IMG/VR virus record: IMGVR_UViG_3300042691_026427
Span: 85,249 to 149,248 of that record
Source: a virus
Length of the DNA stretch: 64,000 bases
Reading direction: 5' to 3' (one strand)
Shown here: positions 2,789 through 55,990 of the stretch, one piece after another
Layout of the letters: every line of letters starts with the position of its first letter
Numbering within the stretch: the stretch's first letter is position 1
Translations under genes and position numbers: made by a program
The notes under the pieces: generated by a model
What the model saw: only the letters and a program-made list of their open reading frames with translations
What the model was told of the DNA's origin: nothing
Databases searched by the model: none

Positions 2789-2792
2789 GGTA

Positions 2793-2800: not shown

Positions 2801-2820
2801 GCTTGTTAAAGTTCAATTTG

Positions 2821-21703: not shown

Positions 21704-22030
21704 TTATTTTACCGAAAAACTACTGCCGCAGCCACAGCTAGATTCAGCATTTGGATTTAGTATGTTAAAACTAGCACCTAAGAGGTCTTCTTTATAGTCT
21801 ATTACCGCACCGGTCATATATTGCATACTCATTGCATCAACTAACAGAGTAACACCATCTTTTTCCACAACAAAGTCATCCTCATTTTGTTGTTCGTCAA
21901 AGGTAAATCCATATTGAAATCCACTGCATCCACCGCCCTGCACAAATGATCTCAATTTCAAATTGGGATTATTTTCTTCAGCTAATAGACTGGTAATTTT
22001 ATCAATTGCGTTGTCAGTTACTTGTATCAT
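21704..22030 (-). CDS. erpA: ErpA-type Fe-S cluster carrier protein
   Basis: A-type carriers hold Fe-S clusters and pass them to apo-enzymes. The 108-residue protein matches ErpA along its length: [20 protein letters not shown], then [27 protein letters not shown] and the C-terminal [10 protein letters not shown]. The three cluster-binding cysteines (one in GGGCSG, two in CGCG) are intact. The gene overlaps iscA by 4 nt (ATGA) and is last of the iscU-iscA-erpA set. Placement next to a phage operon of eight radical SAM enzymes, all needing [4Fe-4S] clusters, suggests it loads them; that link is inferred. Confidence 0.93.
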
Positions 22031-22347
22031 ATTCTAAAACTTTCACCGCATCCGCAGCGGTCGCGTTCATTTGGATTTTTAAAATCAAATCCTTCGTTAA
22101 GTCCATTCCGAACCCAATCAATTTCAACACCTTGAATATATGCACAGCTTTTAGGATCAACATATAGTTGGCAACCATACGACTCAAAGCATCGATCTTC
22201 CGGGTTTGGTTGATCCACATATTCTAACACATAGGCCAGTCCAGAACATCCAGTAGTTTTAACGCCTACTCGTAATCCTATACCTTTACCTCTTTTGGAT
22301 AAGGTTGCTTTGACTTTTTTAGCAGCCTGTTCAGTTAGTGATATCAT
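22027..22347 (-). CDS. iscA: IscA-type Fe-S cluster carrier protein
   Basis: Starting at [16 protein letters not shown] (22347) gives a 106-residue protein of normal IscA length; a further upstream Met is inside iscU and unlikely. The cysteines are in [15 protein letters not shown] and at the C-terminus RCGCGESF, as in Isc[17 protein letters not shown] and [12 protein letters not shown] are also typical. It overlaps the end of iscU by 17 nt and the start of erpA by 4 nt, so the three are translated together. Confidence 0.93.
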
Positions 22348-22714
22348 GTTTGTTTTTGTAATCAGCCACGGCTGCTTTGATAGCATCTTCTGCTAAAATG
22401 CTACAATGTATCTTAACTGGGGGTAGTGCTAGTTCTTCAGCAATCTCACTGTTCTTGATAGTGCCTGCTTGATCAAGTGTCATGCCTTTGACCATTTCTG
22501 TTATAAGACTGCTGCTGGCGATAGCACTGCCGCAGCCATAAGTTTTGAAGCGAGCATCAGTAATAATACCATCCTCAACTTTGATCTGTAGTTTCATTAC
22601 ATCACCGCAGGCAGGTGCGCCAACCATGCCAGTTCCTACTGTGTCGTCAATATCAAATTTACCTACATTGCGAGGATTTTCATAGTGATCAATTACGGCG
22701 GCCGAATAAGACAT
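22331..22714 (-). CDS. iscU: IscU Fe-S cluster scaffold protein
   Basis: IscU is the platform on which the cysteine desulfurase builds the [2Fe-2S] cluster. This 127-residue protein has all key residues: Cys36 and Asp38 in APACGDVMK, Cys61 in [12 protein letters not shown], and Cys104 in the chaperone-recognition and ligand motif [16 protein letters not shown]. Length matches bacterial IscU. Its ribosome-binding site GAGG lies inside the end of the broken homing-endonuclease gene, and a TTTACA-17-TATAAT promoter is 50 nt upstream. No IscS, HscA/HscB or ferredoxin is seen, so host desulfurase and chaperones would be used. Confidence 0.95.
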
Positions 22715-23403: not shown

Positions 23404-23814
23404 TTATGTCAGGTCAGCAATCATAAACTCTTCATCGAAATATTGACGAACATCTGGAACCATTCCTTGACTTGTGTCAAATTGCCATTGCCCAATGACT
23501 TCTAGTATTTGATTGTAAATTGTCGAGTTGTCTGTGTATCTTACAAAATATGGATCATTGCCGTATAACAGATCAGCATCGTCCAAATAGTCAATAGGAT
23601 CGCCACCAAAGTATTCCGATAACCAACGAGCGTAGCATATGCCTACCATGTAGCTTTTTGCAGGATAGATCCATCCGATATCTTTTTCAGTAAAATATCT
23701 TACAGCATTATTTGTTATGTCATCAGACAGCACAATTTCTTTGGTATTGAGATCGTCATCAAACACTTGATTGATCCGATGATAAACTTCTTGTCGTATT
23801 TTCCATTCTTTCAT
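23404..23814 (-). CDS. Unknown protein ending the radical SAM operon (136 aa)
   Basis: An alpha-rich protein with WIYPAKSYMVGICYARWLSE and ADLLYGNDPYFVRY but no recognised domain, signal or metal motif. Its first 56 bases overlap the end of the preceding radical SAM gene, which is a large overlap, but the only later Met (near residue 57) would remove a third of the protein. It may be a partner or immunity-type protein for the modification system; nothing in the sequence shows this directly. Confidence 0.6.
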   Translation of the reverse strand: MKEWKIRQEVYHRINQVFDDDLNTKEIVLSDDITNNAVRYFTEKDIGWIYPAKSYMVGICYARWLSEYFGGDPIDYLDDADLLYGNDPYFVRYTDNSTIYNQILEVIGQWQFDTSQGMVPDVRQYFDEEFMIADLT

Positions 23815-24724: not shown

Positions 24725-25781
24725 TTACATAAGGTGTAGGATCTACTTTTCCAGTCAATCCGTTTGCTTCAATTATGAGAGGCGCTAGAGTTTTCATCTT
24801 AACACAATGAGCTTCTACCATATTGTGGTCTTTTAGATCTTTGATTGTTTTCTTGCAACCGTTGCATATTTGAAACATAGGGCAAGTCCAACAGCTCTGT
24901 TTTAAACTTTGTAATTCAGGTTGAAACTGTAAGGGAAATACTTTCTCCCCTTTCATTTCTTCTTCAAAGTTTATATTGTAGATCCGGTCATCACCAAATG
25001 CTCCGCAACTGTAATAATCGCCTGTAGGCTGCAAGGTTCTTATACCACTATCGCACGATCTGTTCTGAGGACAACTTGTGGCATATCCGTTCAAACGATT
25101 TACCATTTGTTTTGTGTTAAATTCCCATTCAGTTAACCCTTGTTGCCAAATTTTTACATATATTTCGTATATGTCAGCTAACATGTATGGTCTACCTTCT
25201 TGTCCCATAGTAATATTTTTAAATTTAACTGGAGGGCCACTGCTAAATGCATAATTGAGTTTACATTCAACATTCATTTCTTTTGCCAGCTCTACATTCT
25301 TAATTGCAAGATGTTGATTCTCTTCTGTAATTACTGTGATAAAATCAGGACGATATCCTATGCGCTCTAGCATCATATTGCTGACTGCCCAAAAGTCCTC
25401 TTCGCTGAATTCTGTTAGGTCTCCCTTAAGACGGCCGCCGCCATATTGGAAACTAGTTGTGACTCCTAGGCGAGGATGCTTAAACAGAGATTCCCACTTG
25501 GTAGGATTTTTATAAAATGGCCACAGATTACTTGTAAAACTGATAGTAGCTGTCGAGCCTATATTGTCTAAGTGTTCAATAAGTTTCCAATAATAATCTG
25601 GTGGCATCATTAAGGGGTCGCCGCCATTGACAATTATAGTTCGAGTTTCTGGAAATCTTTCTAAGAAACGAAAGATATATTCATGATCAAGCTCTGCAGA
25701 CTTATCTTCAGTAATGTTCGTGCTAGAACAAAATGTGCATTTAAAATTGCACCGTTCAGTTGGCTTGATTATTAGATCCAT
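24711..25781 (-). CDS. Radical SAM/SPASM peptide-modifying-type enzyme (356 aa)
   Basis: CNFKCTFC (Cys11, 15, 18) is followed by TIIVNGGDPLMM, the SAM-binding GGxP-like motif, with the usual partial barrel after it (ISFTSNLWPF, GVTTSFQYGG). The C-terminal SPASM region has CPQNRSCDSG, YYSCGAFGDD and CWTCPMFQICNGC followed by HC, enough for two auxiliary [4Fe-4S] clusters. The RTLQPTGDYYSCGAF strand is the usual SPASM entry. It overlaps the B12-type enzyme upstream by 26 nt. Confidence 0.88.
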   Translation of the reverse strand: MDLIIKPTERCNFKCTFCSSTNITEDKSAELDHEYIFRFLERFPETRTIIVNGGDPLMMPPDYYWKLIEHLDNIGSTATISFTSNLWPFYKNPTKWESLFKHPRLGVTTSFQYGGGRLKGDLTEFSEEDFWAVSNMMLERIGYRPDFITVITEENQHLAIKNVELAKEMNVECKLNYAFSSGPPVKFKNITMGQEGRPYMLADIYEIYVKIWQQGLTEWEFNTKQMVNRLNGYATSCPQNRSCDSGIRTLQPTGDYYSCGAFGDDRIYNINFEEEMKGEKVFPLQFQPELQSLKQSCWTCPMFQICNGCKKTIKDLKDHNMVEAHCVKMKTLAPLIIEANGLTGKVDPTPYVNEHE

Positions 25782-27426
25782 ATTCTACTATTTCTTCAAA
25801 GAGGTTATTATAGATTAACTGCTCGTTTGAATTTATAAATTCTTCGATTATTTCTAATCTATTTTTTCCATTTATTTTTGTTATATCCTTAGCAGCAGTT
25901 TCGTAATTTAGTGTATCTTTTACATCGTTGTATATCTCTTTAAAAGAACTAATGTTATTCATAGCGGTCCAACAATATTCAAGAAATGTCCGAACATCTG
26001 GTAAAACATCTTTTAAGTTTTTCCAAAGTTTCCTGACTAATGTATCTGATGCAAAAGACATAATAAACATTTGAATGTTATCTTCTAATGTATAAGAGTT
26101 ACAACTGGATATAGTTTTAAAATAATTTTTACGATTTTTATAAAGGCCGCTTGAAATAAAAGAAATTCCTTCTTCTACGGTTTGTGTGAAAACTTCTACT
26201 AATTTTATTTTATTTAAAGCACAATAAAGATCATCAGTAATTTCACTATCTGGTAGAGCCATATAATCATAAAAACAATATTGAATATTATTGTTTTCTA
26301 AACTATTGTATATCACTAACAGTTCATCATAAAAATCATCCAATGTTGAACCCGGCATTGCTCTTATAAATTCCATAAAAGGAGATGATGCTCCAAAATT
26401 TTTTTCGCAGTATTCAATTAATTGTATTTTATCTATCTTGTTTAAATCAACACGTTTAGAAATCTTCATTGCATTATCACTTAAACTCTGAATACCTATA
26501 TTAGGAACTATCGATTTTCTCCCGTTTGACGTATCTGTTCCTGTTATTTTGAAAATCTCATCAATTATCTTAATTTTTTTATCTAGATTTGTTGTTTTAA
26601 ACAATGAAGAGTTTATAAATGACATTCCCAAGTCATATGCATATTTTAAGAAAAACAAGTCTCGTTCTAAGAATAATCCAAAGTTTGCATCAACATTATA
26701 AATTTGCTTATAACCTAATTTGTGCAGCACATCTATTTCTCTAATTACAATATCTTCAGGTTTCTTTAACACCTTAGTTCCAATGCCGCCACCCCATTCA
26801 CAATATGTACAATGAAATGGGCACCCTCTTGTAGTTTCTATTAATACGTGTGGAAATATTCCCTCAATATCGGCGTAGTCTTTTATCTTTTTTAAGTAAT
26901 CGAAATTTTCTTCATATGCACAAACATTGGGAAATTGCCATTCTCGGCATTTAGTACTTCTTAATTCAAAACTAATATCTTCTATGTTAGGTATTCCGTT
27001 ATTTTCAAAATAGGAATCTATAAAATCTTGCATGAATAGTTCGCCTGGTTTTGTTACCTGACAGAAATAATCATACATAGTTTTCTTTTTGAAGATATCT
27101 ATATCTTTCTGCCCTATTTGCGGACCGCCCAACACATTAACTATATTAGGGTTAATATTCTTTGCCAATCTTGCAACTTCATCTATGATATCAGTATTCC
27201 AAATGTAAGAACTGTATAAAATTATGTCAGCAGTATTAACTTCTTCCCATATTTCTTTACAACTTTGATATCTGTTATATTTGAATGGTGGCTCTAACCA
27301 TTCAACTAAATCTTTGTATTTTCCAAAATTATCATAGTATGATTTCATCCATATCCAAGTCACTGGACTGAATAGCTCAGTGTCAATGCTAGGAGGATTT
27401 ACAAAAGCTATTTTAATTTTTTTCAT
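25756..27426 (-). CDS. B12-binding-type radical SAM enzyme (556 aa)
   Basis: The first 150 residues have a Rossmann-like pattern (KIKIAFVNPPS, ADIILYSSYIWN, VNVLGGPQIGQ) as in the cobalamin-binding domain of class B radical SAM enzymes, without a clear DxHxxG motif. The cluster site is TTRGCPFHCTYCEWGGG (Cys202, 206, 209), and the following YNVDANFGL and FMEFIRAMPGSTLDDF segments are typical of this group, which includes methylases and ring-forming enzymes. The last 150 residues are helical. Its start overlaps the upstream stop as TAATG. It could add methyl groups to unactivated carbon, but the reaction is not shown. Confidence 0.85.
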   Translation of the reverse strand: MKKIKIAFVNPPSIDTELFSPVTWIWMKSYYDNFGKYKDLVEWLEPPFKYNRYQSCKEIWEEVNTADIILYSSYIWNTDIIDEVARLAKNINPNIVNVLGGPQIGQKDIDIFKKKTMYDYFCQVTKPGELFMQDFIDSYFENNGIPNIEDISFELRSTKCREWQFPNVCAYEENFDYLKKIKDYADIEGIFPHVLIETTRGCPFHCTYCEWGGGIGTKVLKKPEDIVIREIDVLHKLGYKQIYNVDANFGLFLERDLFFLKYAYDLGMSFINSSLFKTTNLDKKIKIIDEIFKITGTDTSNGRKSIVPNIGIQSLSDNAMKISKRVDLNKIDKIQLIEYCEKNFGASSPFMEFIRAMPGSTLDDFYDELLVIYNSLENNNIQYCFYDYMALPDSEITDDLYCALNKIKLVEVFTQTVEEGISFISSGLYKNRKNYFKTISSCNSYTLEDNIQMFIMSFASDTLVRKLWKNLKDVLPDVRTFLEYCWTAMNNISSFKEIYNDVKDTLNYETAAKDITKINGKNRLEIIEEFINSNEQLIYNNLFEEIVEYGSNNQAN

Positions 27427-28475
27427 TAGTTATATTTTAACACATTTTCTTCGTCGAGTCTATTAAAAAATTCTCTAAACAGACATTCGTCATTGCGTTC
27501 CAATTTTGCCCAATCAGCTTGCACAAAACATCTAAATGAGCAACGATCAAACCATTTACATCCCAAGCATTTGTTGCGTTCAAGATGCGCTTCTATAATA
27601 TTGCTGTTAGAAGAAAAATTAACCGGAGTTAGAAAATCTTCAGGCTCTGTCTTTACATAACGACAAGTTACTTCTCTACCTGACGGAAGTATAGTAGTCT
27701 TGTTCATCGAATAACAAGTCATCTTATTACGACTGTTTTCCAATAGATCTTTTACGGGATAAATGTTGGGATAATTCTTGGCAATATACATCATACAATC
27801 CAACATTTCCTGTTCACTAGGCATCATCTTATCTGCAGACAATTCTGGAACATAATAATCAAAATACAATGTATATTTTTTATACAGTGTATCTATAAAA
27901 AATTTGTCTTGGTTGCGTAATATCTTTCTAATAGCCGGAGCAGTGAGTACAAATCCAATAACAGTGATCCAATCTCCAAATATTTTTAAGTTATTTTCAA
28001 ATTGTAATGATCTGTTTAAATTAAAACCTCTGCCTGCAAAGTCATAAGATGTCGAGATATATGCATTATTTCCCACAGCTCGCATACGAGTTATTAAGTC
28101 AATTACACGTTGACTCTTGTTGAATATCAAATTAGTTACCCAATTAAATCTAACAATCTTGTTGTTGAGGTTAACCCAATCATTTATTTTTGAATAGAAT
28201 TCCCAATAAGATTCAAATGTGTTATCTGGCACTAGATCATTAAAAATCTCTCCACCCATGACGTTTACAATATGGGAATCCTTATCAGATGCCGTCATGA
28301 AATCTATAACTTGCTGAGCCTTATCAACAATACTGTTAAGTTCCATTCCTTCTGTAGAATCGTGATCTTGTCCGCAAAATGCACAACTTAGATTGCAAAA
28401 TTCAAATAGATGCAACTCGATTTCAGATGAATCGGGTACCTTATCTCTTAATACATGTTTTAGAAAATCACTCAT
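27426..28475 (-). CDS. Radical SAM protein with SPASM-like C-terminus (349 aa)
   Basis: The cluster motif is CNLSCAFCGQDHD (Cys27, 31, 34). SAM-binding glycines are in IVNVMGGEIFN, and a barrel strand reads YISTSYDFAG. The C-terminal part has KMTCYSMNKT, GREVTCRYV, KCLGCKWFDRCSFRC and ECLFRE, the cysteine pattern of a SPASM domain. The start overlaps the 137-residue gene by 8 nt. It resembles the 321-residue enzyme in the DFCY/AFCG layout and Asp-rich strand, and both lack a clear GGEP. Confidence 0.85.
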   Translation of the reverse strand: MSDFLKHVLRDKVPDSSEIELHLFEFCNLSCAFCGQDHDSTEGMELNSIVDKAQQVIDFMTASDKDSHIVNVMGGEIFNDLVPDNTFESYWEFYSKINDWVNLNNKIVRFNWVTNLIFNKSQRVIDLITRMRAVGNNAYISTSYDFAGRGFNLNRSLQFENNLKIFGDWITVIGFVLTAPAIRKILRNQDKFFIDTLYKKYTLYFDYYVPELSADKMMPSEQEMLDCMMYIAKNYPNIYPVKDLLENSRNKMTCYSMNKTTILPSGREVTCRYVKTEPEDFLTPVNFSSNSNIIEAHLERNKCLGCKWFDRCSFRCFVQADWAKLERNDECLFREFFNRLDEENVLKYN

Positions 28476-31646: not shown

Positions 31647-32366
31647 TTATTCTACTCCAAATACTTCTTCCGGATTTAGCGGAATTTCTTTGTTTATCAT
31701 TTGATACAATAAGGGAACAAACATATTTAAATCATTATTATAGTAGTCAAATAACGATTTTCCCTTAAACATGTGTGCTTCAAATTGTTGAGTAAAATAC
31801 GTTAAACTTAAAGGTCTGTCTACTGAAAAGTATATTTCTAAAAAGCCTGGCAAACTAAAAAGATTAACAACATTTAATCCAACATAATGGGGATCATCAA
31901 TATTTTCAAAGTTCTCTTTAACATTAAGTTCTGCGTTTAAGTCTTCAAAACTTTTAATTAGAAACAACATAGTAGAATCAATAAAATGAATCCAACGACC
32001 TACTAAACTTTCATTCTTAGTAATAAATTCTTCACACTCTTCTTTGGATAGCAAGCTCTTTCCATAATTTGCATCAGGATAAATGGCTTGTAAGATAATT
32101 TGAGCCGCAGCAACATTCAGATATGCAATGTTCGAAACACTGTTCCCCCCAAAATAAGCTTCAATTAATTCAAACTTTTGTTCTTTGGTTACTGACTCAT
32201 TTAGAACCAAGTCAGAAGGAATATCTAAATTTGAGAGGTATACTAACAGTACTTTTCCTTGAATTTTTGACTGTTGGTAATCTACCATAAAGAATGTATT
32301 TTTATCTTTAAAGTACTCTTTGATTTGATCAATTGGTATTGGTGCAATCGTCTGAACGTAATTCAT
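31647..32366 (-). CDS. Unknown protein between the two enzymes of pair 2 (239 aa)
   Basis: No recognised domain. N-terminal half has hydrophobic strands (GKVLLVYLSNLDI), the middle is helical (EFITKNESLVGRWIHFIDST), and the C-terminus is aromatic and acidic. It overlaps the 383-residue radical SAM gene by 38 nt and abuts the 367-residue enzyme gene. It could be the substrate or a leader-binding partner of pair 2, but it has no Cys/His-rich tail like the 220-residue protein of module 1. Confidence 0.6.
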   Translation of the reverse strand: MNYVQTIAPIPIDQIKEYFKDKNTFFMVDYQQSKIQGKVLLVYLSNLDIPSDLVLNESVTKEQKFELIEAYFGGNSVSNIAYLNVAAAQIILQAIYPDANYGKSLLSKEECEEFITKNESLVGRWIHFIDSTMLFLIKSFEDLNAELNVKENFENIDDPHYVGLNVVNLFSLPGFLEIYFSVDRPLSLTYFTQQFEAHMFKGKSLFDYYNNDLNMFVPLLYQMINKEIPLNPEEVFGVE

Positions 32367-33480
32367 TATAATTTTTCCTAAGTTCTGTTAAATTTTGTTT
32401 TGCTTTTGTTTCGTATAGTTGTATAAAGGTAGATTTGTTATTTCTAATCCTCGATATAACTTTTTTCGACAACGGGCATTCATCGCTGTCATCAAACAGA
32501 CTTGCATCACAATTTCCGCCGCAAATATCATAATGTTCACATGTGAAGCACATTTCATGTTGTGTCATTTCGGCTAATTTATTTATAATGACATCTACGG
32601 CCTTGGTTTGAAATGTATCCCAGTCGTTTACCATTTCATCAACTGTAGATACAGGTTCAACATAAGTCTTGTCGGGGCAAAATCCAACAGTACCATTTGG
32701 ATTTAACGTAAATGTTCTTTTATCGCAACAATTACATTTACAATCAAACATTTGACCGCTCAATAGAGTTTTGGTGAATAGATCTACTTGTGGTAAGCAC
32801 CAAGTAGTTTCATTATGTTGGTAATATTCAACCAAAGTATCTAACCAATTTGCCCATTTGATATTATTTGGTTTTAAACTTCTTGTCTGTTCATCAAACG
32901 TAGTGAGCAATTCAAAGTCTATAGAATCAACTCCATCAAATAGTTTTACAATTTCGAGAGGATCATAATTTAAAAGATATTTCTGTGCTGTGATAGATAT
33001 ATGCACTTTTATACCTGCATCTATTAATTTTTTTAAATTACCAAAGAATAAATCTTCTTGCTCATGTTTTTTATTAATTGCAATAGATCCAAATCTTATA
33101 TCAGCGTCCCAACTTACTCCAATAGTTGATCTATATTCATCCTTAATAAATTGAATAAATGTATCGTCTACCTTATAGAGTAAATTGGTTTGGGGTACAA
33201 TGTCCATCGGCATTGAGCCAAAAGTATTTCTTATTATTTCATTTACTTTAACTAAATGTTCGTAAGGTGATAAAAATGTCTCGCCACCATGTATGTAAAA
33301 AGTAGCCTTGGCAGGATCAACATTTTTTTTAATTGAGGTTAGAAATTTTTCAATGTAACCTAAATCAGTAAGCATATAGGGATCTTTGTCTCCTAATGTA
33401 AAACAGTGAGTACAATTTAAATTGCAACCCTGTATCACTCTTAGATAGATTACATTGAATTCGTTTGAAAAAACGTTCAT
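32329..33480 (-). CDS. Radical SAM/SPASM enzyme, first enzyme of pair 2 (383 aa)
   Basis: CNLNCTHCFT (Cys19, 23, 26) and FYIHGGETFLSP (SAM site) are followed by the barrel strand IGVSWDADIRFGS and a SPASM domain: CKCNCCDKR, GTVGFCPDK, MCFTCEHYDICGGNCDAS and ECPLSK. It is clearly a paralogue of the 351-residue enzyme of module 1 (shared CNLNCxHCFT, HGGExFL, SWDxDIRF and TLNxxGTxxxCP). SPASM enzymes of this layout act on ribosomally made peptides. It overlaps the methyltransferase gene by 4 nt. Confidence 0.9.
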   Translation of the reverse strand: MNVFSNEFNVIYLRVIQGCNLNCTHCFTLGDKDPYMLTDLGYIEKFLTSIKKNVDPAKATFYIHGGETFLSPYEHLVKVNEIIRNTFGSMPMDIVPQTNLLYKVDDTFIQFIKDEYRSTIGVSWDADIRFGSIAINKKHEQEDLFFGNLKKLIDAGIKVHISITAQKYLLNYDPLEIVKLFDGVDSIDFELLTTFDEQTRSLKPNNIKWANWLDTLVEYYQHNETTWCLPQVDLFTKTLLSGQMFDCKCNCCDKRTFTLNPNGTVGFCPDKTYVEPVSTVDEMVNDWDTFQTKAVDVIINKLAEMTQHEMCFTCEHYDICGGNCDASLFDDSDECPLSKKVISRIRNNKSTFIQLYETKAKQNLTELRKNYNELRSDDCTNTN

Positions 33481-34349
33481 AACTTCGGCTTGCTTGCCAC
33501 AATAAAATAATAGTTAAGTTTATTGTTTTTATGATTTTCTATAAAATATTCTTCAATGCCACTTTTAAGTTCCCACTGAGATCTCAATTCCCAATAAGGT
33601 ACCAAATCTTTAGTTCTATCTTCAGTAAAAATTAAGTTTAAGCCTGAGTTAACTATTGCAGTTTCGTATTCATTAATACCATGCATGGTAGATGCGTAAT
33701 GATCGTTAATAGGTTCAATAAATTCATTAAAATTATTAGTGTCTAGATTGTCGTTAAAACACCAAGTGGCAATTACAAAGCGGCCACCGGGTTCTAAAAC
33801 TCTGTATACTTCCTTAAACAACATGTCAAGTTCTAATGCATATTGAGTAACTTCGCAGCAATATGCATGACTAAAAGTAGCATCAGCATAGGGAATACTT
33901 AGAAAATTAGCCTGTCTAACTTCTGCTCTATCTTGTAAATTTCTTTTTTCTATTTCGTCTTTACAAAAATTAGTTTGATACTCAGTTAAATTTACACCAT
34001 CGACTTTGACATTTGAAAACTTTTCTATAATCCTAAACATGGTGCCTCCGCGTCCGCAGCCCAAGTCAATGACTCGTTGTGGTGTACCAAATAGTTTATC
34101 AAACTGTAAAAATGTTATTAAGTGACTAGTCAGTTTGTTTTCTTGTCGTTGGACTTCTGCTGTAATTTCTTCTGTAGTTGCAGTAGTAGCATCTATTTCA
34201 GTAGGGCCTAAGCCAAAGTGATGATGAACAAAACCATCAACTGCTTGTAGCAAGTTTCTATCATTCTTTTTATTGTTATAATAATCAAATACCGCAGTAC
34301 TAAGCGTGTTTTGAGTTTGGGTATGATCGTTGTTAAATTTTGTATACAT
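33477..34349 (-). CDS. SAM-dependent methyltransferase resembling geranyl-diphosphate C-methyltransferases (290 aa)
   Basis: The fold motif is VIDLGCGRGGTMFRI, followed by DGVNLTEYQTNFC, a VLEPGGRFVIATW strand and the ending LVPYWELRSQW plus SGIEEYFIENH. The N-terminal DYYNNKKNDRNL...VHHHFGLG and this C-terminal PYWELR...GIEE.FI pattern match the actinobacterial geranyl diphosphate 2-C-methyltransferase group (makers of 2-methylisoborneol precursors), not the usual phage DNA or protein methylases. Length is normal for that group. The real substrate in a phage is unknown. It abuts the oxygenase-like gene and overlaps the next radical SAM gene by 4 nt. Confidence 0.8.
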   Translation of the reverse strand: MYTKFNNDHTQTQNTLSTAVFDYYNNKKNDRNLLQAVDGFVHHHFGLGPTEIDATTATTEEITAEVQRQENKLTSHLITFLQFDKLFGTPQRVIDLGCGRGGTMFRIIEKFSNVKVDGVNLTEYQTNFCKDEIEKRNLQDRAEVRQANFLSIPYADATFSHAYCCEVTQYALELDMLFKEVYRVLEPGGRFVIATWCFNDNLDTNNFNEFIEPINDHYASTMHGINEYETAIVNSGLNLIFTEDRTKDLVPYWELRSQWELKSGIEEYFIENHKNNKLNYYFIVASKPKL

Positions 34350-34970
34350 TTAAATTTCCAGTAGTGCTTTTGCGTCTGTTGCAAAAGAATATCGTGTGCC
34401 AATAAAAGGTTTTGCCCTATGCCAAACATCCGACGCCATTACTATCATAGTATACGGGATAGGAGCATATTTGTAAACCGGATTTAAATTTTCAGGCAAC
34501 CAAACATGTGATAACGGGTTTTCTTTTAAATCTTCATAGAATTCAAAACATCCGTTATCCATTCCAATAGTATCATCTTGTTTGATATATAATACTGTGG
34601 TCACGTCACCGATTTCATCTGCTCTTAAAAAAGGTTGCCAGTGACGATGTATACGTTGGCCTTGCCAACTGTTAGGAGTGTTGAGCCATGAATCCTTGTC
34701 TAGATAATAGTTCTGGCCTTTGCCAGCAAATCTAGGATGCACCGTATCTAGAAAATCAAAAATAATGCTGTCTATTACAGCTTCAAACATCTTCACTTCT
34801 GGTGTATTTGTTTCCCAGACGTTTAATTTGTTTTTTTCATCATCGGGTCCCAAAAAATACATTTGCGTATTGTCAATTAACGAATTACAAAATGGTTCTA
34901 TAAGTTCTTTGTAATCATTTAAATCATATATCATTGCATTAAAGTTAGGAACTTTAAATTTGTTTGTCAA
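34350..34970 (-). CDS. Probable 2OG-Fe(II) oxygenase-like protein (206 aa)
   Basis: Candidate metal and cosubstrate residues are in QRIHRHWQPFLRADEIGD, NGCFEFYED and VMASDVWHRAKPFIGTRYSF. The order His ... acidic ... DVWH ... TRYSF resembles prolyl-4-hydroxylase-like enzymes of T4-like phages (distal His then Arg). The first His-x-Asp pair is not clear, so the assignment is moderate. It abuts the methyltransferase and overlaps the 229-residue gene by 4 nt. If active, it would hydroxylate a partner in the same modification pathway. Confidence 0.5.
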   Translation of the reverse strand: MTNKFKVPNFNAMIYDLNDYKELIEPFCNSLIDNTQMYFLGPDDEKNKLNVWETNTPEVKMFEAVIDSIIFDFLDTVHPRFAGKGQNYYLDKDSWLNTPNSWQGQRIHRHWQPFLRADEIGDVTTVLYIKQDDTIGMDNGCFEFYEDLKENPLSHVWLPENLNPVYKYAPIPYTMIVMASDVWHRAKPFIGTRYSFATDAKALLEI

Positions 34971-35656
34971 TTTTGAACCTCATCAAATACAGTAGATTTC
35001 ATCAAGGGGTCGGCAGGATAGTAATATAACTTTAACTTCAATGGTTGATAGGTAGTTGCGTTATATGTCAAACCAAACACCTTCATAAAAGTAGTGTCTT
35101 TGCAAAATTCTTTAACAGATTCGATGAACGGAATTGGAAGATTATAAAAATTTGCAACTGTTTCAACATTTTGATGCATAAAATATAAATCTTTCTTTTC
35201 GGGATTAACGCTGATACCTTGTCCCCAGTGACTTAATATTTGACTTCCTGCAACTATCATCGGCTGTGTATGTTTCCACAGATCTAAATCATAAAATTTT
35301 GGAACCTGTTGTTTGCTATCTAAAAAATAATTGATACAATAATCGTCATGTGGTCTAACGATATTAATGTTAAATTTGTTGCAATCGATCCTTCCTCCGG
35401 AATATACAGCCATGAACTTGTGTTCGGTATAGTTTATACCATCTGCAGGTTGGAAACTAAATTGTTGCAATTTTTCTAAGTTCACACCTTCATTAAAGAT
35501 AGAACCCATAACATCAATATAGGCGAACAAATAATCGTCTGGAACTTTTTTAGAATTAAACAAGTTCTCTTCTACTTTGTTACCTACGATTGTTATCTCT
35601 TCGGCATGTTGATTTATTTCTTTGCTTATTTCTTTAAAAAAGTCAATACTATTCAT
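34967..35656 (-). CDS. Unknown protein in radical SAM operon (229 aa)
   Basis: No recognised domain. It has several aromatic strands (DDYLFAYIDVMGSIF, HKFMAVYSGGRIDCN, KLKLYYYPADP) and a run PHDDYCINYFLD. It sits 6 nt after the 350-residue partner gene and overlaps the oxygenase-like gene by 4 nt. A role as a partner or enzyme of the same system is likely from position only. Confidence 0.6.
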   Translation of the reverse strand: MNSIDFFKEISKEINQHAEEITIVGNKVEENLFNSKKVPDDYLFAYIDVMGSIFNEGVNLEKLQQFSFQPADGINYTEHKFMAVYSGGRIDCNKFNINIVRPHDDYCINYFLDSKQQVPKFYDLDLWKHTQPMIVAGSQILSHWGQGISVNPEKKDLYFMHQNVETVANFYNLPIPFIESVKEFCKDTTFMKVFGLTYNATTYQPLKLKLYYYPADPLMKSTVFDEVQN

Positions 35657-35662
35657 AGTACA

Positions 35663-36715
35663 TTAGTAAAGTCTAAATGGAGCCAAATCTGCTGTTAAAT
35701 TTTGTCTCTTTTTTCTATAGCAATAAGTTGAAAATATTTGATTAGATTTTTCTCTAAATAATTCAAATGTATAAAGACACCCAAAGTTTCTATTGATGTC
35801 TCGATGTAGTAATCCTTCCCAATCTTCAGCCATAAGCATTTGGTTTACTTCAAACATATCTTCATTACCTGTATGATCGGGCACCCATATTCTTTCTAAG
35901 GAATGCCATTGATTAACAAGATTGTTGTAATCATAGTTAGAAGTAATGTAGGAAGGTTCTGCTGAGAAATTCTCATCAACCATCCAATTTAACGTTGAGC
36001 TGTTTTTCAATTGGTCTTCGACGTTACCTATTTCAAAGTTGCTGTCAGGGTCTATTACACCCATGTCTAAGAATCCAAACATCGTTTCTAATCTTAGTTG
36101 CTCCAACTCATCTCGCCAGTTGTCAATACTAATGATTCTAACACGGTCTAGTATTTCTTCTTTGCATAGACTTTCTTCACCATGATATAGATAGTCGGGC
36201 AAAAGATATTCGAACGAAACATCCTGTTTATTAATGACATTTCTTAAAAAATTAGAAACTGGTTGAGCATCGTATATAACTTTGAATTCTTCGAATGATT
36301 TCATCTTAAAAGTATCTCTTACCATTTGATGTCGCGTATCGGGTGCATTAACTTGTATATAGGATCTTACTCGCACACTTTCAACCATTGATTTATACAG
36401 GAGGTAAACATCTTGCTCTGAAGCATATTGAAATATACTTTTTGCATATTGTATTAACAATCTCTCAGTAACATCGGTTTTTAAATAGGCGATAAGTTTG
36501 TGATCAGCTTCGTACATATATTGCCAAAATTGTTCAACATCGTTTTCAAAATTGTTTGCCAATAACTCGTCAAATGTGCCAACTGACGGCAGTATACAAA
36601 TATCTGTTGGCATTGGAAAGAGATTGTATAAATCGGTTGCCATTAACATTTTGTAACCAATACTGTCGAATTTATAATCAAATTCTAAATAAGCTCTTTT
36701 AAATAAGTGAAACAT
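35663..36715 (-). CDS. Unknown partner protein directly after the Cys/His-tail protein (350 aa)
   Basis: The start MFHLFKRAYLEFDY at 36715 overlaps the stop of the 220-residue protein as TAATG, with an AGAGGAAGAAG ribosome-binding site inside the tail-coding DNA, so the two are translationally coupled. A longer reading upstream is unlikely because the 310-residue paralogue also starts at this point. Shared blocks with that paralogue (EYLLPDYLYHG, GLLHRDINRN) define a family without a known name. Being coupled to the candidate substrate, it may bind, protect or deliver it. Confidence 0.7.
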   Translation of the reverse strand: MFHLFKRAYLEFDYKFDSIGYKMLMATDLYNLFPMPTDICILPSVGTFDELLANNFENDVEQFWQYMYEADHKLIAYLKTDVTERLLIQYAKSIFQYASEQDVYLLYKSMVESVRVRSYIQVNAPDTRHQMVRDTFKMKSFEEFKVIYDAQPVSNFLRNVINKQDVSFEYLLPDYLYHGEESLCKEEILDRVRIISIDNWRDELEQLRLETMFGFLDMGVIDPDSNFEIGNVEDQLKNSSTLNWMVDENFSAEPSYITSNYDYNNLVNQWHSLERIWVPDHTGNEDMFEVNQMLMAEDWEGLLHRDINRNFGCLYTFELFREKSNQIFSTYCYRKKRQNLTADLAPFRLY

Positions 36716-37377
36716 TATCTTCTTCCTCTTGATCCGTGGCAATTATTATGGCACGATGAATGACACACACGTAAATCAACTGTTCCTATTGAACCTCTTA
36801 GTGCAGTAACTGCGGCAGCTAAATTAGTATAAAAATTGTTGATATTGGCTGCAGAAATAGTAGCATTTGTACTTGGTTCAGATGATACGAACCCTACAGA
36901 TTGCAAATAATTATTATTAAGATGGGCTTGGCCATAAGTTAATAAAACTGTTCCGGAGAAAAAGGGGATGTTTGCATTGTCTGACGGTACGCCAGTTTGA
37001 GTATATTGACCGTTAAAATATTGAGTATAATAAAGGCCCCAAACAGCTGGACGTAATCTAGTAGTAGCATTGGCAAATGCTTTGCACATATTAACAATTA
37101 AACTGGCGTTTATTGTCAAACCGGATGCTCCTGAACCAGGTAGATTAGAAGTCGTTGGATATGCGTATGTATTCGTACCTAACTCACTTAACCTTGCAGA
37201 GAGGTATGCTCCTGTCCAGCCGATAACAGTACCGTTGTCCCACATTCTAACGTTAATTACTGGAACGTTGTAGTAGTGTATGCTTCCACTAGGGTCCATT
37301 CGCGAGGTATTCATCACTGTTGCAATAAAGTCATTAACTACGCTGGCTTTGGTTATAACTTGTCCTGTAGATGCCAT
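36715..37377 (-). CDS. Candidate modified virion protein with C-terminal CHSSCHNNCHGSRGRR tail (220 aa)
   Basis: Residues 1-200 look like a phage structural protein: Thr/Asn/Ala-rich, with TGQVITKASVVNDFIATVMN, many aromatic strands and a helical region near 175-195. From Cys205 the protein changes to C-H-S-S-C-H-N-N-C-H-G-S-R-G-R-R: three Cys-His pairs spaced by four residues, in a protein with only one other Cys. It follows a pair of radical SAM enzymes by 14 nt, has its own AAGGA site and a possible late octamer (37392-37399), and is coupled to the next gene by TAATG. The tail resembles a modified core peptide and recalls the His-Xaa-Ser repeats of hxsA-type substrates. It could instead bind metal or heme. 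Substrate status is inferred. Confidence 0.75.
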   Translation of the reverse strand: MASTGQVITKASVVNDFIATVMNTSRMDPSGSIHYYNVPVINVRMWDNGTVIGWTGAYLSARLSELGTNTYAYPTTSNLPGSGASGLTINASLIVNMCKAFANATTRLRPAVWGLYYTQYFNGQYTQTGVPSDNANIPFFSGTVLLTYGQAHLNNNYLQSVGFVSSEPSTNATISAANINNFYTNLAAAVTALRGSIGTVDLRVCHSSCHNNCHGSRGRR

Positions 37378-37390
37378 TTATCCGTTCCTT

Positions 37391-38392
37391 TTATTTAATA
37401 TCCAAAAAACAACCCATGTTAAAATCTCTTGCTATAGGAAAATACCCTTTTCCCATGCAGTGGGTTAAATTTTTACAATTGACACATTTGTCTAGTATCA
37501 CGTTATTTATATCATCTATACTGCTGTAAGTTTTAATAAAACCTTCGTAATTTGGAGTCAGCACTCTAAATCGAGGATTATCTATAAAAACGTATTCATC
37601 AAAAGGAATAATAGGAGTTAAAAAAATATCACCCGGTGACCCTAAAAAAGTAAATGCAGGTTTTCGCAACAGTGTTCTGTCGTTGTATTGTTTTGTTGCA
37701 TTCTCTGTACCTAAATAATGATCAGTTATGTCATGTATGGTTCTAATGCTTTCTTGCAACATGTTTGTTTTTTTCTCCAAACTTATATCTGGATTATACA
37801 AAAATGTAAAATTTAGTTCAATTATCTCATCATCGGATAAAAAATCTAACATTTGGTTTAGTTTAACTTTTTCCTTATCGGACAATGTAAATCCGGTATT
37901 GATTGCCAAGTTGATTATAACATCATCGCCGTATGTTTCTTTAATCTTTGCAATTCTAGATTTTATTGTTATTTGATAGTTTATGTCAAACAGTTTTGCT
38001 ATCAATAGATTGACCTGCAATTCAATTTTGGCCAATGGATTATTGTTTTTTACAATTTTAAAAAATTCTGGATCAAACCCTGTTTCTAACGTAGATGCCA
38101 CACCCACATACTCAAACAATGAAACTGTTTCTGCAAATTCTGCATTTTCAAACAGTTTGTAATTGTCCTTGTTATCAAATATATCAGTTGGCAATAGATA
38201 ACAAGTTTCCAATTCATAACCGTTTTTCAACAAGTCTTTGGCCAACGATAACGAAGATGTAAAATCGTTGTAATTATTTTTAGTTCTGTTGTAAAAACAT
38301 CCCCGGCAATCCATGGAACAGTCATTCAATACCAGCATTCTAAATTCTGCCAGTTTGTATGGGTCACCATATCTTTCGTAGGAATTATACAT
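37391..38392 (-). CDS. Radical SAM protein, second enzyme of pair 1 (333 aa)
   Basis: The cluster motif is LNDCSMDCRGCFYN (Cys25, 29, 32). The SAM-site glycines are replaced by TCYLLPTDIFDN, as in its paralogue of 367 residues (PTDFL). The C-terminal region has CVNCKNLTHCMGKG and then GCFLD, a short auxiliary-cluster (twitch-like) region. It overlaps the 351-residue enzyme by 8 nt and is followed directly by the candidate substrate gene. Confidence 0.85.
   Translation of the reverse strand: MYNSYERYGDPYKLAEFRMLVLNDCSMDCRGCFYNRTKNNYNDFTSSLSLAKDLLKNGYELETCYLLPTDIFDNKDNYKLFENAEFAETVSLFEYVGVASTLETGFDPEFFKIVKNNNPLAKIELQVNLLIAKLFDINYQITIKSRIAKIKETYGDDVIINLAINTGFTLSDKEKVKLNQMLDFLSDDEIIELNFTFLYNPDISLEKKTNMLQESIRTIHDITDHYLGTENATKQYNDRTLLRKPAFTFLGSPGDIFLTPIIPFDEYVFIDNPRFRVLTPNYEGFIKTYSSIDDINNVILDKCVNCKNLTHCMGKGYFPIARDFNMGCFLDIK
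37392..37399 (-). promoter_or_regulatory. Possible late-promoter octamer ATTAAATA before the Cys/His-tail gene
   Basis: RNTAAATA-type motif at the very end of the upstream radical SAM gene, 15 nt before the ATG of the 220-residue protein. It would let the candidate substrate be made at higher level than the enzymes. It is the weakest match of the set. Confidence 0.3.
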
Positions 38393-39440
38393 GATGTACA
38401 GCCTTGATAGGAATTGTAATTCTCTTTGGCTTTGCCAATGCTTTCATCAAACTTTTCGGTGCTCCGCATATATCGTCCTGCCATTCTAGTTGATGACAAT
38501 CGCTGTTGCAGTATTCAAATACTTCGCAAGTATAACATCTAGGATCCCTAGCTCTTTCGCAAGAAATGTTTTCTAATCTCTGGGGACTTGTTAACAAAGA
38601 GGCAATGTCATCATCAATGTGGCCAAATTGATGTTCTGGGGCGCTATTGGGGCAACCAGATATAGTTCCATCAGCATTTAGGGTAAACAGCTTTTCTTCA
38701 CAGTCCCTGCAAAATGTAGCGCCATTGGTAAGTCCAATTTCAAATTTAGCATAGATGCTTTCCATAAATTCGTTACTGAACCATGACCTTGCGTCATGCT
38801 CTACTATCTGATGGTGCATCTTTAAAAACCACTGATCTTGTTCTAAGTTTGTGGGAAATATATGCAAATTTTCTCTTGCGCTGCCGTTCATAGTGAGACG
38901 CTCAAGTGCTAGATCAGTAACGCCTAAATCTCTTATCCATTCCAGCAGATCAATAGGTTCCATGGCAACGGTGCCTCGGGTAACACTGACAAACAGTTTG
39001 ACCTCAACTCCTAGATCAATTAGGGTCTGCAGATTCTTTCGCCATAAGTCGTATTGTTTAGGACTGGCAAATCTTATGTCTGGATCCCAGCTAGTTCCTA
39101 TGCGGCCTCCCAATGGCCCCATGATAAAATCAATCTTGTCCTGTGTTAACTTATAAGTTAAGTTGGTAGTGACACCCCAGCTGCGACTAGCCCATAATTC
39201 CTGGCATTGATCATACACATACTGCATCGATGATATATCTGCTAAAAAGGGTTCGCCGCCGTGAAACTCTAAATGTACATGGGGCGCACTAGCTGTTTCA
39301 ACATGTAGACGTTTAAGCCAATCGGCAACCTTTACATGATCCCAATATATCTTTGCGCCTTTGCTGCCGCTAGTAAAACAGTGCAGGCAATTGAGATTAC
39401 AGGTTTCTGTAGTCTTGAGGTAAATCATTAATTCTTTCAT
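38385..39440 (-). CDS. Radical SAM/SPASM enzyme, first enzyme of pair 1 (351 aa)
   Basis: Cluster motif CNLNCLHCFTSG (Cys14, 18, 21), SAM site LEFHGGEPFLAD, barrel strand GTSWDPDIRFAS, then a SPASM domain with FCRDCEEK, GTISGCPNS, RCYTCEVFEYCNSDC and ICGAP. All features of a peptide-modifying SPASM enzyme are present. It is a paralogue of the 383-residue enzyme of pair 2. Base composition is richer in G and C than its paralogue, suggesting a different history. It starts 9 nt after the cupin-type oxygenase. Confidence 0.9.
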   Translation of the reverse strand: MKELMIYLKTTETCNLNCLHCFTSGSKGAKIYWDHVKVADWLKRLHVETASAPHVHLEFHGGEPFLADISSMQYVYDQCQELWASRSWGVTTNLTYKLTQDKIDFIMGPLGGRIGTSWDPDIRFASPKQYDLWRKNLQTLIDLGVEVKLFVSVTRGTVAMEPIDLLEWIRDLGVTDLALERLTMNGSARENLHIFPTNLEQDQWFLKMHHQIVEHDARSWFSNEFMESIYAKFEIGLTNGATFCRDCEEKLFTLNADGTISGCPNSAPEHQFGHIDDDIASLLTSPQRLENISCERARDPRCYTCEVFEYCNSDCHQLEWQDDICGAPKSLMKALAKPKRITIPIKAVHHV

Positions 39441-39448
39441 CAGAATAT

Positions 39449-39919
39449 TTAATAGCCTACGCTAAGGGCCCAAGTATTTTGTACACTGCTGACTCGATGT
39501 AGATAGCCCCGTGGTATTATCACATGCTGACCCGGATGCAATACAACCTTTTTATTTCGAATGTAAACTGTCTTTCGACCCTTTATTACATGCAGTAATA
39601 CATTTACATCGTCTTTGTGCCAATCAAAACTGTAGCCAAATTTTTGATTGACAAATAGGTGTATGTTTTTAAAATTTATCTTGTTAAAACAAGAACTGAC
39701 AGCGTGATCTGTTTCAAGGCCTTCAACTTTTATCACAGGATAGGATTTATGCTGTTCTATCCATTGAGAAAAAGTAAAAAAATCTTTAACTATGCAATCA
39801 CTGTGTTTATAGTCAGGGTGACCTATAACTTTTATTAAACCCTGTTCATACTTGGAATAATCTAACAGCTGATCGGCCAGTAATTTACTTACTGTCTTGG
39901 TCAGGCAGTGGTCCGCCAT
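39449..39919 (-). CDS. Cupin/JmjC-like Fe-dependent oxygenase-type protein (156 aa)
   Basis: The cupin core reads GYSFDWHKDDVNVLLHVIKG then RKTVYIRNKK, VVLHPGQHVIIPRGYLHRVS. This gives the His-x-Asp and distal His metal ligands (WHKD and YLHRV) in a double-stranded beta-helix, as in JmjC-like protein hydroxylases. At 156 aa it is a minimal version. Its start overlaps the end of the head-leader protein gene by 35 nt, placing it as second gene of the late operon that continues into the radical SAM genes. Protein hydroxylation is possible; the substrate is unknown. Confidence 0.65.
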   Translation of the reverse strand: MADHCLTKTVSKLLADQLLDYSKYEQGLIKVIGHPDYKHSDCIVKDFFTFSQWIEQHKSYPVIKVEGLETDHAVSSCFNKINFKNIHLFVNQKFGYSFDWHKDDVNVLLHVIKGRKTVYIRNKKVVLHPGQHVIIPRGYLHRVSSVQNTWALSVGY

Positions 39920-40757
39920 ATTTAGAGCCTCTTATCTTTTTGCCTTTGATATAATTGCCCTGGCCGTCTGTATGGCCCTTGCCCTTGCTTTGATGTGCTC
40001 TTAACCCTTGACTGACGCAACTGCTGTGATCGCTGCTGCCCAATCGTTTGCTACTGCGGCAAAGGTCGGGATCAGTTTTTTCGGATACCGATTGATCTTC
40101 TGCCATAGCTGGCTGAGTATCGGAGTAGGCTGAAAATGCCTGCAATGCTTTGGGATTTTGTTTTAGCCATTGTTCAAACCGTTGAGCATTCATATTGGCA
40201 AAAATACCAGTACCTAGTACCCCAGGACTCGGCGGTCTTCCACCTAACTTTAACGCAAGTTCATGCGCTTCTTTGTCTCGTAGAATGTTTGCTTGATATT
40301 CTCTTTGATTGGCTTTGTCTTTCCAATCCATATAACTAGTCCACGAAGAGCCGGCTGGCGATCCTTTTCGTAAGTCAGCAGTAGCTGCTGGTCCAAACGC
40401 CTCCTCCACACCTTTCTTTTGCAAATAGAAATAGGAACTGACTAAATCACTAGGAAAGTCTTCATCGTAATTAAACAAGTGTCCTGCTTTCTTACGGCCC
40501 ATGTCACGGACAACATGCTCCCATGCGGCATTTAATACATCATCTTCAGACGTCAAATCTGGATATTGACTGAACACTTTTGATGCAATGTTTTCATTGT
40601 AGTAATTGCCAAAGTTCTCTCCAACAAGATCGCCCTGACTGGCAGGGCGTTTCATTGAACCTTTGAGGTGCCCAGCAGGGCCTAGTTTGTTTTTATCGCT
40701 GCCCGCAAAGGCTGATGTGGGCATGAAAGCTTCGGTGACAAGTTCGTGTATTCGCAT
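39885..40757 (-). CDS. Protein with head-targeting-like leader MRIHELVTE (290 aa)
   Basis: The N-terminus MRIHELVTEAFMP resembles the leaders of T4-type internal head proteins that end in a prohead-protease site (here V-T-E). The body is hydrophilic, with a central helical region (NAAWEHVVRDMGRKKAG...), and the C-terminal 60 residues are basic and Gly/Ser-rich (SSKRLGSSDHSSC, GKGHTDGQGNYIKGKK), which would fit DNA contact. A late octamer GCTAAATA is 8 nt upstream of the ATG. As first gene, it links the radical SAM operon to late expression. Confidence 0.6.
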   Translation of the reverse strand: MRIHELVTEAFMPTSAFAGSDKNKLGPAGHLKGSMKRPASQGDLVGENFGNYYNENIASKVFSQYPDLTSEDDVLNAAWEHVVRDMGRKKAGHLFNYDEDFPSDLVSSYFYLQKKGVEEAFGPAATADLRKGSPAGSSWTSYMDWKDKANQREYQANILRDKEAHELALKLGGRPPSPGVLGTGIFANMNAQRFEQWLKQNPKALQAFSAYSDTQPAMAEDQSVSEKTDPDLCRSSKRLGSSDHSSCVSQGLRAHQSKGKGHTDGQGNYIKGKKIRGSKYGGPLPDQDSK

Positions 40758-54874: not shown

Positions 54875-55990
54875 TCAAATGTTGAACAAAGCCAGCGAAA
54901 AATTAACGCCTGCGCCGCTGACCACATTTACTGTCAAATAATCATTAATGTTGATGGGATACTCTAGATCCCCGTAGACATAGGTAAAATTGCCCGCAGG
55001 CAGGGTAAAAAAGTTCAACAGTGTTCCATTTCTATAAAGACCCACAGTTAGGTCAACACCCGCTATTTTACCGTTGGTCAATCTAACTGATCTCACTGTG
55101 TCATTTGCATTGGGTGCAAAAACAGCACTGCCCAACAAGGGCGCATTGAAATTATTCAGTATATTAAAAGTTTTTATGGGCTGATCCGAAGCGCCGCCAC
55201 CACCCCCTCCAGAACTGGTAAAAGTGATAGTTTTGGGCGAAGCTGCATTGTTTGTCACAATGGACATGCCAGCACCCGCTACAAATCGAACAGTGTCAGC
55301 ACCCGTGGCAGTTATGGTGTTTTGTCCTGTAACTGCTATGCTTTTGAAACTGTCGGGATTTAGCAAACTGCTGTTGATGCTGACACGGGCAATGCCCGAG
55401 CCCAAATTGGTCACAATCAAACCGCTGGCATTGTCAAAGCGCAGGCTGACCACATTGGTCACTGTGGTCACAAGATCGGTTATGCTGCTGAGACTGCCGC
55501 CTCCTCCACTACCCCCACTGCCAGTAAAACCAACAACACCCTGTGGACCCTGTGGGCCAAATGAACCCACAAAGCCTCGAACGCCCATGCTGCCCACAAA
55601 GCCTGACTCACCCAGAGAACCAGTGAATCCACGAGACCCAAAGCTACCAGTATAGCCACGTGGACCCTGTACTACGCCTAGATCAACCCAATTGTTGCCG
55701 TCCCAAATGTACAGTGTGCCCGTGTCACGAGCCAGTACAGTGTCACCAACAGCACCAGTCCAGGGATCAACCAAATCCGCGGCAGTGTTGACATAGTTGG
55801 TAATGGTGATGGCCACTCCGGGGCCCCCGCTGCCCCCGGAAGCCACAATGGGTATGCCCCCGGGTGTGACACCGTCACTGTAGCGCAGTTCCGCTGAGTC
55901 GTTGTCGTAGAATAGTTCACCCTTGCGACCCACATAAGTGGCCGCAGTGCCCCCGCTTTTACTGGTCCATATAGTACGGATAATGGCCAT
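54875..55990 (-). CDS. Fibre protein with Mtd_N-like N-terminus and collagen-like linker (371 aa)
   Basis: Residues 20-50 (KGELFYDNDSAELRYSDG then TPGGIP) match the N-terminal domain also seen in the 549-residue fibre. A DTGTLYIWDGNNWVDLG segment like the inserts of the 997-residue fibre precedes a short collagen-like run (residues about 108-160, GPRGYTGSFGSRGFTGS). The C-terminal half is a beta-sandwich ending GVNFSLALFNI. It is thus a compact relative of the long collagen-like fibre. It follows the head-leader protein gene by 12 nt. Confidence 0.75.
   Translation of the reverse strand: MAIIRTIWTSKSGGTAATYVGRKGELFYDNDSAELRYSDGVTPGGIPIVASGGSGGPGVAITITNYVNTAADLVDPWTGAVGDTVLARDTGTLYIWDGNNWVDLGVVQGPRGYTGSFGSRGFTGSLGESGFVGSMGVRGFVGSFGPQGPQGVVGFTGSGGSGGGGSLSSITDLVTTVTNVVSLRFDNASGLIVTNLGSGIARVSINSSLLNPDSFKSIAVTGQNTITATGADTVRFVAGAGMSIVTNNAASPKTITFTSSGGGGGGASDQPIKTFNILNNFNAPLLGSAVFAPNANDTVRSVRLTNGKIAGVDLTVGLYRNGTLLNFFTLPAGNFTYVYGDLEYPININDYLTVNVVSGAGVNFSLALFNI

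Follow-up and report, generated by a model that had tools for sequence, protein, structure and literature searches.

A radical SAM enzyme cassette linked to a Cys/His C-terminal tag on a probable virion protein of large phages

The window analyzed here, 64,000 nucleotides covering positions 85,249 to 149,248 of the 149,248-base viral record IMGVR_UViG_3300042691_026427, carries on its minus strand a cluster of eight radical S-adenosylmethionine (rSAM) or rSAM-like genes between positions 23759 and 39440, accompanied by genes for a cupin, a 2-oxoglutarate (2OG)-Fe oxygenase, a methyltransferase and several proteins of no assigned function (Table 1; genes are named below by their lower coordinate). 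A first-pass annotation had singled out two of these enzymes, one of 351 residues with a full SPASM domain (38385, hereafter rSAM1) and one of 333 residues (37391, rSAM2), followed by a 220-residue protein with a tail of Cys-His pairs, and had proposed that the enzyme pair modifies this tail. All three genes are present as described, the rSAM2 gene overlapping that of rSAM1 by 8 nucleotides, and so is the TAATG coupling of the tail protein gene to the next one, which encodes about 350 residues and whose ATG overlaps the stop codon. The C-terminus of the tail protein, as read, is RVCHSSCHNNCHGSRGRR, and this is the single CH-repeat tail in the whole record.

When the whole tail protein was compared with phages by tblastn, its last 39 residues alone found matches, in three Burkholderia jumbo phages, and pattern scans were therefore needed. 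A degenerate DNA pattern for the motif CHxxCHGxRGRR matched 93 viral contigs, and in 107 of 107 open reading frames (ORFs) with the motif a stop codon directly follows RGRR, which shows that the tail is not a product of chance. The bodies of the relatives are very divergent and about 125-320 residues long, with a recurring fold; in an alignment of 43 tail proteins, a set selected by the tail motif, mean column identity was 28% and the tail positions C, H, C, H, C, H, G, R, G, R and R were invariant. The 143 unique tails collected, for which the search pattern itself prescribed C, H and R, read (C-H-x-[S, less often N/A/Q])3-R-[G/S/A]-R-R. TCN as well as AGY codons encode their Ser residues, so selection acts at the protein level. 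Moreover, the Ser that ends each unit changes to N, A or Q only and never to G, the x positions being free, which suggests that a beta-carbon is needed at the fourth position of each unit.

Several variants of the tag were observed. Among isolated phages, Atu_ph07 has CHSSCHASCHNSRSRR, Phosso CHTSCHASCHSSRSRR and Pseudomonas phage DT01 CHTSCHTSCHSARGRR. Rarer tail types are without RxRR (CHGSI, CHGSL) or contain four to five repeats; three loci (L042 at 2486-3433, L035 and L064) combine four or five CHxx repeats with a Gly-rich extension replacing RxRR, and in L042 about 125 further residues follow the repeat, placing it inside the protein. Some phages encode two tagged proteins in tandem: in one phage lineage (L059, L060, L076, L133, L138, L163 and L169) these are small (124-144 residues) and, at several of the loci, precede a tandem array of as many as five rSAM 30543 relatives.

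Tail and enzymes proved to be linked in both directions. An rSAM family member is present at 120 of the 124 loci with a C-terminal tail, the other four being accounted for by contigs that are cut off, a spurious ORF and a locus whose downstream flank is short (1.1-1.5 kb). A genuine tail with no rSAM gene nearby, which would have spoken against the original proposal, was looked for and found at none of these 124 loci. By comparison, rSAM enzymes occur at 3 of 74 control loci that match the DNA pattern by chance, and those three are disguised tail loci, two with cut-off tails (L083, L170) and one being the internal repeat of L042. In reverse, a search with the SPASM profile alone detected relatives encoded at 353 viral loci; at 75 of the best 80 of these, chosen without using the tail, the neighbouring gene encodes a tagged protein, in every case ending in RGRR or RSRR. 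At the five tail-negative loci the contig ends 0-300 bases from the matched stretch, so that the count among intact loci is 75 of 75. These findings strongly support the view that the Cys/His tail of a phage protein is served by dedicated rSAM enzymes.

The usual gene order is cupin, rSAM1, tail protein, 31647 homologue, rSAM 27426, in some cases a B12-type rSAM, rSAM 24711, rSAM 23759 and 23404 homologue. The conserved unit is the cupin, the SPASM enzyme 38385, the tail protein, the partner 31647 of about 240 residues and further rSAM enzymes. In most related loci the cupin gene occupies the equivalent place 5' of the SPASM enzyme, the 23404 homologue is the last gene of related cassettes, and homologues of the partner 35663 adjoin or lie near the tail gene in many loci. 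The genes 37391, 32329 and 34967 are restricted to a subset of cassettes, and the rSAM1-rSAM2 pair is thus not the core. The expectation that tail homologues always occur with this pair therefore stood for rSAM genes in general but not for rSAM2, whose homologues are present in few loci, a minority of the relatives.

rSAM1 is kept with or without RxRR at the tail's end, which makes the CHxS units its likely target. The RxRR end itself was compared with the presence of rSAM 27426: both occur at 60 loci and neither at 8, the enzyme is never found without RxRR, and 7 loci have RxRR but no enzyme, which is due at least in part to missing flanks. By counts this association is strong (p 4e-7) and suggestive of 27426 acting on the RxRR end, which we treat as a lead only, because the rSAM1 tree holds just three independent changes. 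A link between the B12-type enzyme and the residue after the third His was also considered, and was lost in a tree-aware count.

With regard to enzyme class, rSAM1 has both the CX3CX2C motif (C14, C18, C21) and the SPASM domain (C247, C263, C302, C305, C311, C315, C325) of the rSAM/SPASM enzymes, and all of these cysteines are invariant in an alignment of 33 homologues. It matches PHROG 1802 (E 8e-68) and scores 20.7 bits with Pfam PF04055, below the cut-off of 29.5. Its nearest curated families are the peptide maturases PapB, anaerobic sulfatase maturase (anSME) and DynA (for the cassette enzymes as a group, YhhB is also among the best matches), and its nearest PDB sequences include 8vpo, 4k37 (anSME, aligned over most of the length) and 5wgg. 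Comparison of rSAM2 with Pfam, NCBIfam and PHROG gave no family above cut-off. Enzyme 32329 resembles rSAM1 (phmmer 1.8e-34), 24711 shares 58-65% identity with its counterparts in isolated jumbo phages, and 25756 is closest to KedN5-type B12 rSAM C-methyltransferases, far under the cut-off. For the methyltransferase 33477, phmmer found no similar protein in the related loci. The partner 31647 was modelled by AlphaFold2 at a pLDDT of 94.6, and its predicted fold has no similar structure in the PDB; profile searches with this partner and with the tail protein against PDB sequences gave chance matches only. The AlphaFold model of the window's tail protein matches in BFVD a 296-residue Atu_ph07 protein, of the same length as gp170. 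The Fe-S assembly genes just 3' of the cluster may be tied to the cassette, as if supplying its rSAM enzymes with Fe-S clusters.

Table 1. Features of the rSAM cluster and its 3' neighbours, in positions of the window
Feature	Position	Strand	Basis or remark
Cupin protein, 156 residues	39449..39919	-	Pfam Cupin_2 31.4 bits, cut-off 27.2; first gene of conserved cassette
rSAM1, rSAM with full SPASM, 351 residues, core enzyme	38385..39440	-	TIGR04085 32.1 bits, cut-off 27
rSAM2, rSAM-like, 333 residues, short auxiliary-cluster domain	37391..38392	-	CSMDCRGC motif and C-terminal cysteines
Tail protein, 220 residues, putative substrate, ends VCHSSCHNNCHGSRGRR	36715..37377	-	PHROG 35144, function unassigned
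C-terminal tag CHSSCHNNCHGSRGRR, three CHx[S/N] units and RGRR, then TAA	36718..36765	-	C/H/R positions invariant in 43 aligned proteins and 143 unique tails (both motif-selected); 75/75 in loci chosen without the tail
Partner protein, about 350 residues, read from its ATG	35663..36715	-	PHROG 36207; TAATG coupling to tail gene
229-residue protein	34967..35656	-	phmmer matches in 5 loci and in Bdellovibrionaceae cassette L184
2OG-Fe(II) oxygenase-like protein	34350..34970	-	PHROG 81, E 7e-9; homologue in L184
SAM-dependent methyltransferase	33477..34349	-	Pfam Methyltransf_11 59 bits, cut-off 21.2
Second rSAM/SPASM, 383 residues, rSAM1 paralogue	32329..33480	-	TIGR04085 28.9 bits, cut-off 27
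Near-universal partner, 239 residues	31647..32366	-	Homologues in 97 loci; PHROG 20767, function unassigned
rSAM-like enzyme, 367 residues	30543..31646	-	Pfam PF04055 E 0.0012 (below cut-off), CxxxCxxC motif
rSAM enzyme, tracks R-x-R-R tails	27426..28475	-	Co-occurrence counts, suggestive
B12-binding-type rSAM, candidate C-methyltransferase, 556 residues, optional	25756..27426	-	NF033712 KedN5 101.5 bits, cut-off 700
rSAM/SPASM, 356 residues	24711..25781	-	Pfam 37.4 bits (cut-off 29.5); TIGR04085 27.8 (cut-off 27)
rSAM enzyme, 321 residues	23759..24724	-	Pfam 28.0 bits, cut-off 29.5
Small partner, 136 residues, closes cassette	23404..23814	-	PHROG 20737 E 5e-54, function unassigned
IscU-like and two IscA-like Fe-S assembly proteins, just 3' of cluster	21704..22714	-	Pfam NifU_N, Fe-S_biosyn far over cut-off

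Elsewhere in the window, putative fibre proteins at 2821-5814 and also at 54875-55990 contain long collagen-like G-x-x-G-S repeats (GYTGSEGFVGS). Three unrelated-looking proteins (7507-7854, 56003-56389 and 39885-40757) have similar N-termini, MRAKEFLSE, MRAREFLKE and MRIHELVTE, perhaps a shared N-terminal signal, and a QueC-like protein with a weak Pfam match lies at 8408-9004.

The cassette is carried by hundreds of phages, large and mostly uncultured, and by a few relatives of predatory bacteria. The tag was found in about 95 IMG/VR phage contigs and in the isolated jumbo phages FLC6, FLC8 and SURPRISE13 of Burkholderia, Atu_ph07 of Agrobacterium, Phosso of Sinorhizobium and DT01 of Pseudomonas, and these bear out the phage setting first proposed, though its presence on Bdellovibrionota chromosomes means that the system is not strictly phage. 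A scan of 84,980 species genomes returned seven genuine tails, six of them in Bdellovibrionota and the seventh on the contig of a Rickettsiales metagenome-assembled genome (MAG), where the end of the tail protein is nearly identical to marine phage ones. In a survey of Bdellovibrionota, 8 of 291 genomes were positive, including the same six (tagged MAG loci L174, L184, L191, L194, L197, L200, G149 and G283). Four Bdellovibrionota cassettes that were checked are on chromosomal contigs, flanked by COX1, SecA, MetRS, FeoB and thiolase genes, and the large terminase (PF03237) was not found in those cassette-bearing genomes; in view of these housekeeping flanks and the missing terminase, a prophage-only origin of the bacterial copies was rejected. 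The cassette-bearing Bdellovibrionota are known as MAGs, the predatory habit belonging to members of the phylum. Predatory Bdellovibrionota and these phages both must get through Gram-negative envelopes, and this common barrier suggests a possible role of the tag in attachment or penetration.

The tagged protein is probably part of the virion, of its tail or adsorption apparatus, on indirect grounds. For several cassettes, large genes on the 5' side have matches among tail-fibre and virion PHROGs. In the Atu_ph07 genome description (PMC6102473), most virion proteins detected by mass spectrometry are reported to fall in three gene clusters, one of them CDS 170-215; that cluster, whose edge is perhaps inexact, begins with gp170, the tail protein of this phage, and the numbering was checked through gp181, gp198, gp204 and gp215. 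As a separate observation, six loci (L001:3486-4934, L002:8808-9929, L035, L040, L146 and L167) encode, 5' of the cassette, a distinct protein whose last six residues are always WPPQWQ, and that of L167 is virion-like by PHROGs.

Taken together, these results make it probable that this is a phage-borne multi-enzyme cassette that modifies the C-terminal tag of a probable virion protein in the manner of the ribosomally synthesized and post-translationally modified peptides (RiPPs), with a precursor that carries a conserved core beside dedicated enzymes. The basis for this is the linkage, gene order, conservation and enzyme class observed above. From these we infer the tag as substrate, its chemistry, the virion location and the function, as follows. 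The variable body of the tail protein, with its recurring fold, would deliver the (CHx[S/N])3-R-[G/S]-R-R tag to the enzymes, the proteins 31647 and 35663 being probable recognition or scaffold partners. rSAM1 would act first, on the CHxS units, most plausibly producing intramolecular links, either a Cys thioether or a bond from His or Cys to the beta-carbon of the unit-end Ser or Asn. Later changes may be made by the further rSAM enzymes, including the B12-type candidate methylase and the RxRR-tracking enzyme 27426. The matured tag would remain on the virion protein, probably in the tail or adsorption apparatus, and may serve contact with, or passage through, the Gram-negative envelope. We advance more tentatively, as a possibility, the full picture in which three to eight rSAM enzymes, one of them B12-type, turn the (CHxS)3RxRR tag of a fast-evolving adsorption protein into a cross-linked envelope-breaching structure, a widespread and undescribed device that the phages share with relatives of the predatory Bdellovibrionota.

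Several observations weigh against this interpretation. No cassette enzyme reaches the cut-off of any curated peptide-maturase model in NCBIfam. The three changes in RxRR and 27426 on the rSAM1 tree, two concordant and none discordant, fall below significance. The model of the window's tail protein has a pLDDT of 69 and no match in the PDB. As for the virion, the presence of cassettes on Bdellovibrionota chromosomes shows that the substrate does not have to belong to a virion, and all three Atu_ph07 clusters are exactly 46 genes long, so that the edge at gp170 may be a drawing choice.

Among other explanations, the one that survives best is a RiPP proper, in which the modified tag would be cleaved from the protein to yield a small peptide product, an antibacterial, a signal or something cofactor-like (cf. 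pyrroloquinoline quinone or mycofactocin), and the body would be an unusually long leader. A multi-enzyme rSAM cassette with a B12-type member is typical of RiPP clusters, and the tag is strictly C-terminal on a poorly conserved body. However, leaders are usually short and conserved, whereas the bodies here have 125-320 residues, are variable and share a recurring fold; the cassette families included no recognizable protease or exporter, several partners being of unassigned function; and in L042 about 125 residues follow the repeat. We therefore regard release of the tag as unlikely. It is also improbable that the tail is an unmodified metal-binding tip, with Cys/His ligands like those of Zn- or Fe-tipped spikes, the rSAM enzymes having some other substrate. 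The CH pairs, which recur regularly every four residues, could act as metal ligands, and the cassette lies beside tail-fibre and virion genes. Against this stands the linkage of tag and SPASM enzyme seen in both directions, and metal ligation explains neither the RxRR end nor the limitation to S/N/A/Q at every fourth position.

A formylglycine-type reaction, with rSAM1 as an anSME oxidizing the last Cys, draws on the resemblance of C-H-G-S-R to C-x-P/A-x-R, on the C-x-x-S-R register in RGRR-type tails and on anSME being among the best family and PDB matches. It is very unlikely, given that rSAM1 scores 47 bits with the anSME model against a cut-off of 349, that tails without the Arg (CHGSI/CHGSL or CHGDGPG) keep rSAM1 and that neither of the first two Cys is followed by Arg at +4. 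Action of the rSAM cluster on DNA, RNA, lipid or glycan, with the tail protein as regulator or neighbour, could be read from the DHFR and 2OG-oxygenase genes that some cassettes also contain; we find it highly improbable, the tag being the one element beside the enzyme conserved to the residue and the enzymes matching peptide maturases best. Finally, haem c attachment, with CHxSCH taken as CX3CH, has the spacing in its favour and a virtually negligible probability, since it takes place outside the cytoplasm, no signal peptide was seen by eye, the tail protein has no cytochrome c Pfam match and the rSAM linkage would be unexplained.

If the tag is indeed modified by the phage cassette, RiPP-like chemistry would be building a virus particle instead of a secreted peptide, a use of which we know no other example. 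It would account for the rSAM gene clusters of jumbo and marine phages, annotated singly and without a role, and would add peptide-modifying rSAM families that are new and whose substrate is obvious, the tag being 16 residues long and open to testing in fusions. It would further tie large phages and relatives of predatory bacteria by a shared molecular device, and isolated phages with culturable hosts make the system directly testable.

Of the known systems, the His-Xaa-Ser system (HxsA with HxsB/HxsC), to which the first-pass annotation had likened the locus, likewise combines multiple rSAM enzymes with a neighbouring protein whose tail repeats His-x-Ser. Here, in contrast, the repeat is C-H-x-S with a spacing of four, not three, followed by RxRR, and the setting is phage. 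By curated cut-offs the two are not homologous: the HxsB/HxsC models TIGR03978 and TIGR03977 each score 30.6 bits (cut-offs 370 and 267.9), and the tail protein, compared with the HxsA-type substrate, has no NCBIfam match. The ranthipeptide and sactipeptide maturases PapB and CteB/SCIFF likewise are full-SPASM rSAM enzymes acting on Cys-rich peptides, and PapB is the top NCBIfam match of rSAM1 (NF047865, 49.7 bits against a cut-off of 340); in this case, however, the substrate is a protein of 125-320 residues, in phages, with many more enzymes per cassette, and the C+4 position of the tag is C, or R in the last unit, rather than the D/E of the PapB C-x3-D/E ring motif. anSME, whose structure 4k37 is so extensively aligned, modifies a protein in a C-x-x-x-R context; rSAM1 scores 47.4 bits with TIGR03942 and the tail protein has no sulfatase Pfam match, and here tails without the Arg still keep the enzyme.

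The three-residue cyclophane maturases YhhB, GrrM/OscB, FxsB and DynA are rSAM/SPASM enzymes that join the side chain of His or of an aromatic residue to the beta-carbon of the residue two positions further along, a spacing that the H-x-[S/N/A/Q] of the tag fits, and a cyclophane-type linkage in the tag is our guess; with their models (YhhB, DynA and others) the best score was 45.6 bits against 445. Genes that are the same as, or close relatives of, those of the cassette have been annotated singly as radical SAM or Fe-S oxidoreductase in FLC6 (gp71/76/79/81), RP31 (ORF72-76) and PHROG 1802; in the portions of PMC8066314, PMC11898562 and PMC5468394 at hand, these annotations make no link to a tagged neighbour and no proposal of protein modification. 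A search of one literature library for phage rSAM protein modification found nothing relevant and no paper on such a system. The cassette fits no curated definition of a known system and is apparently an undescribed one, RiPP-type in its manner of working.

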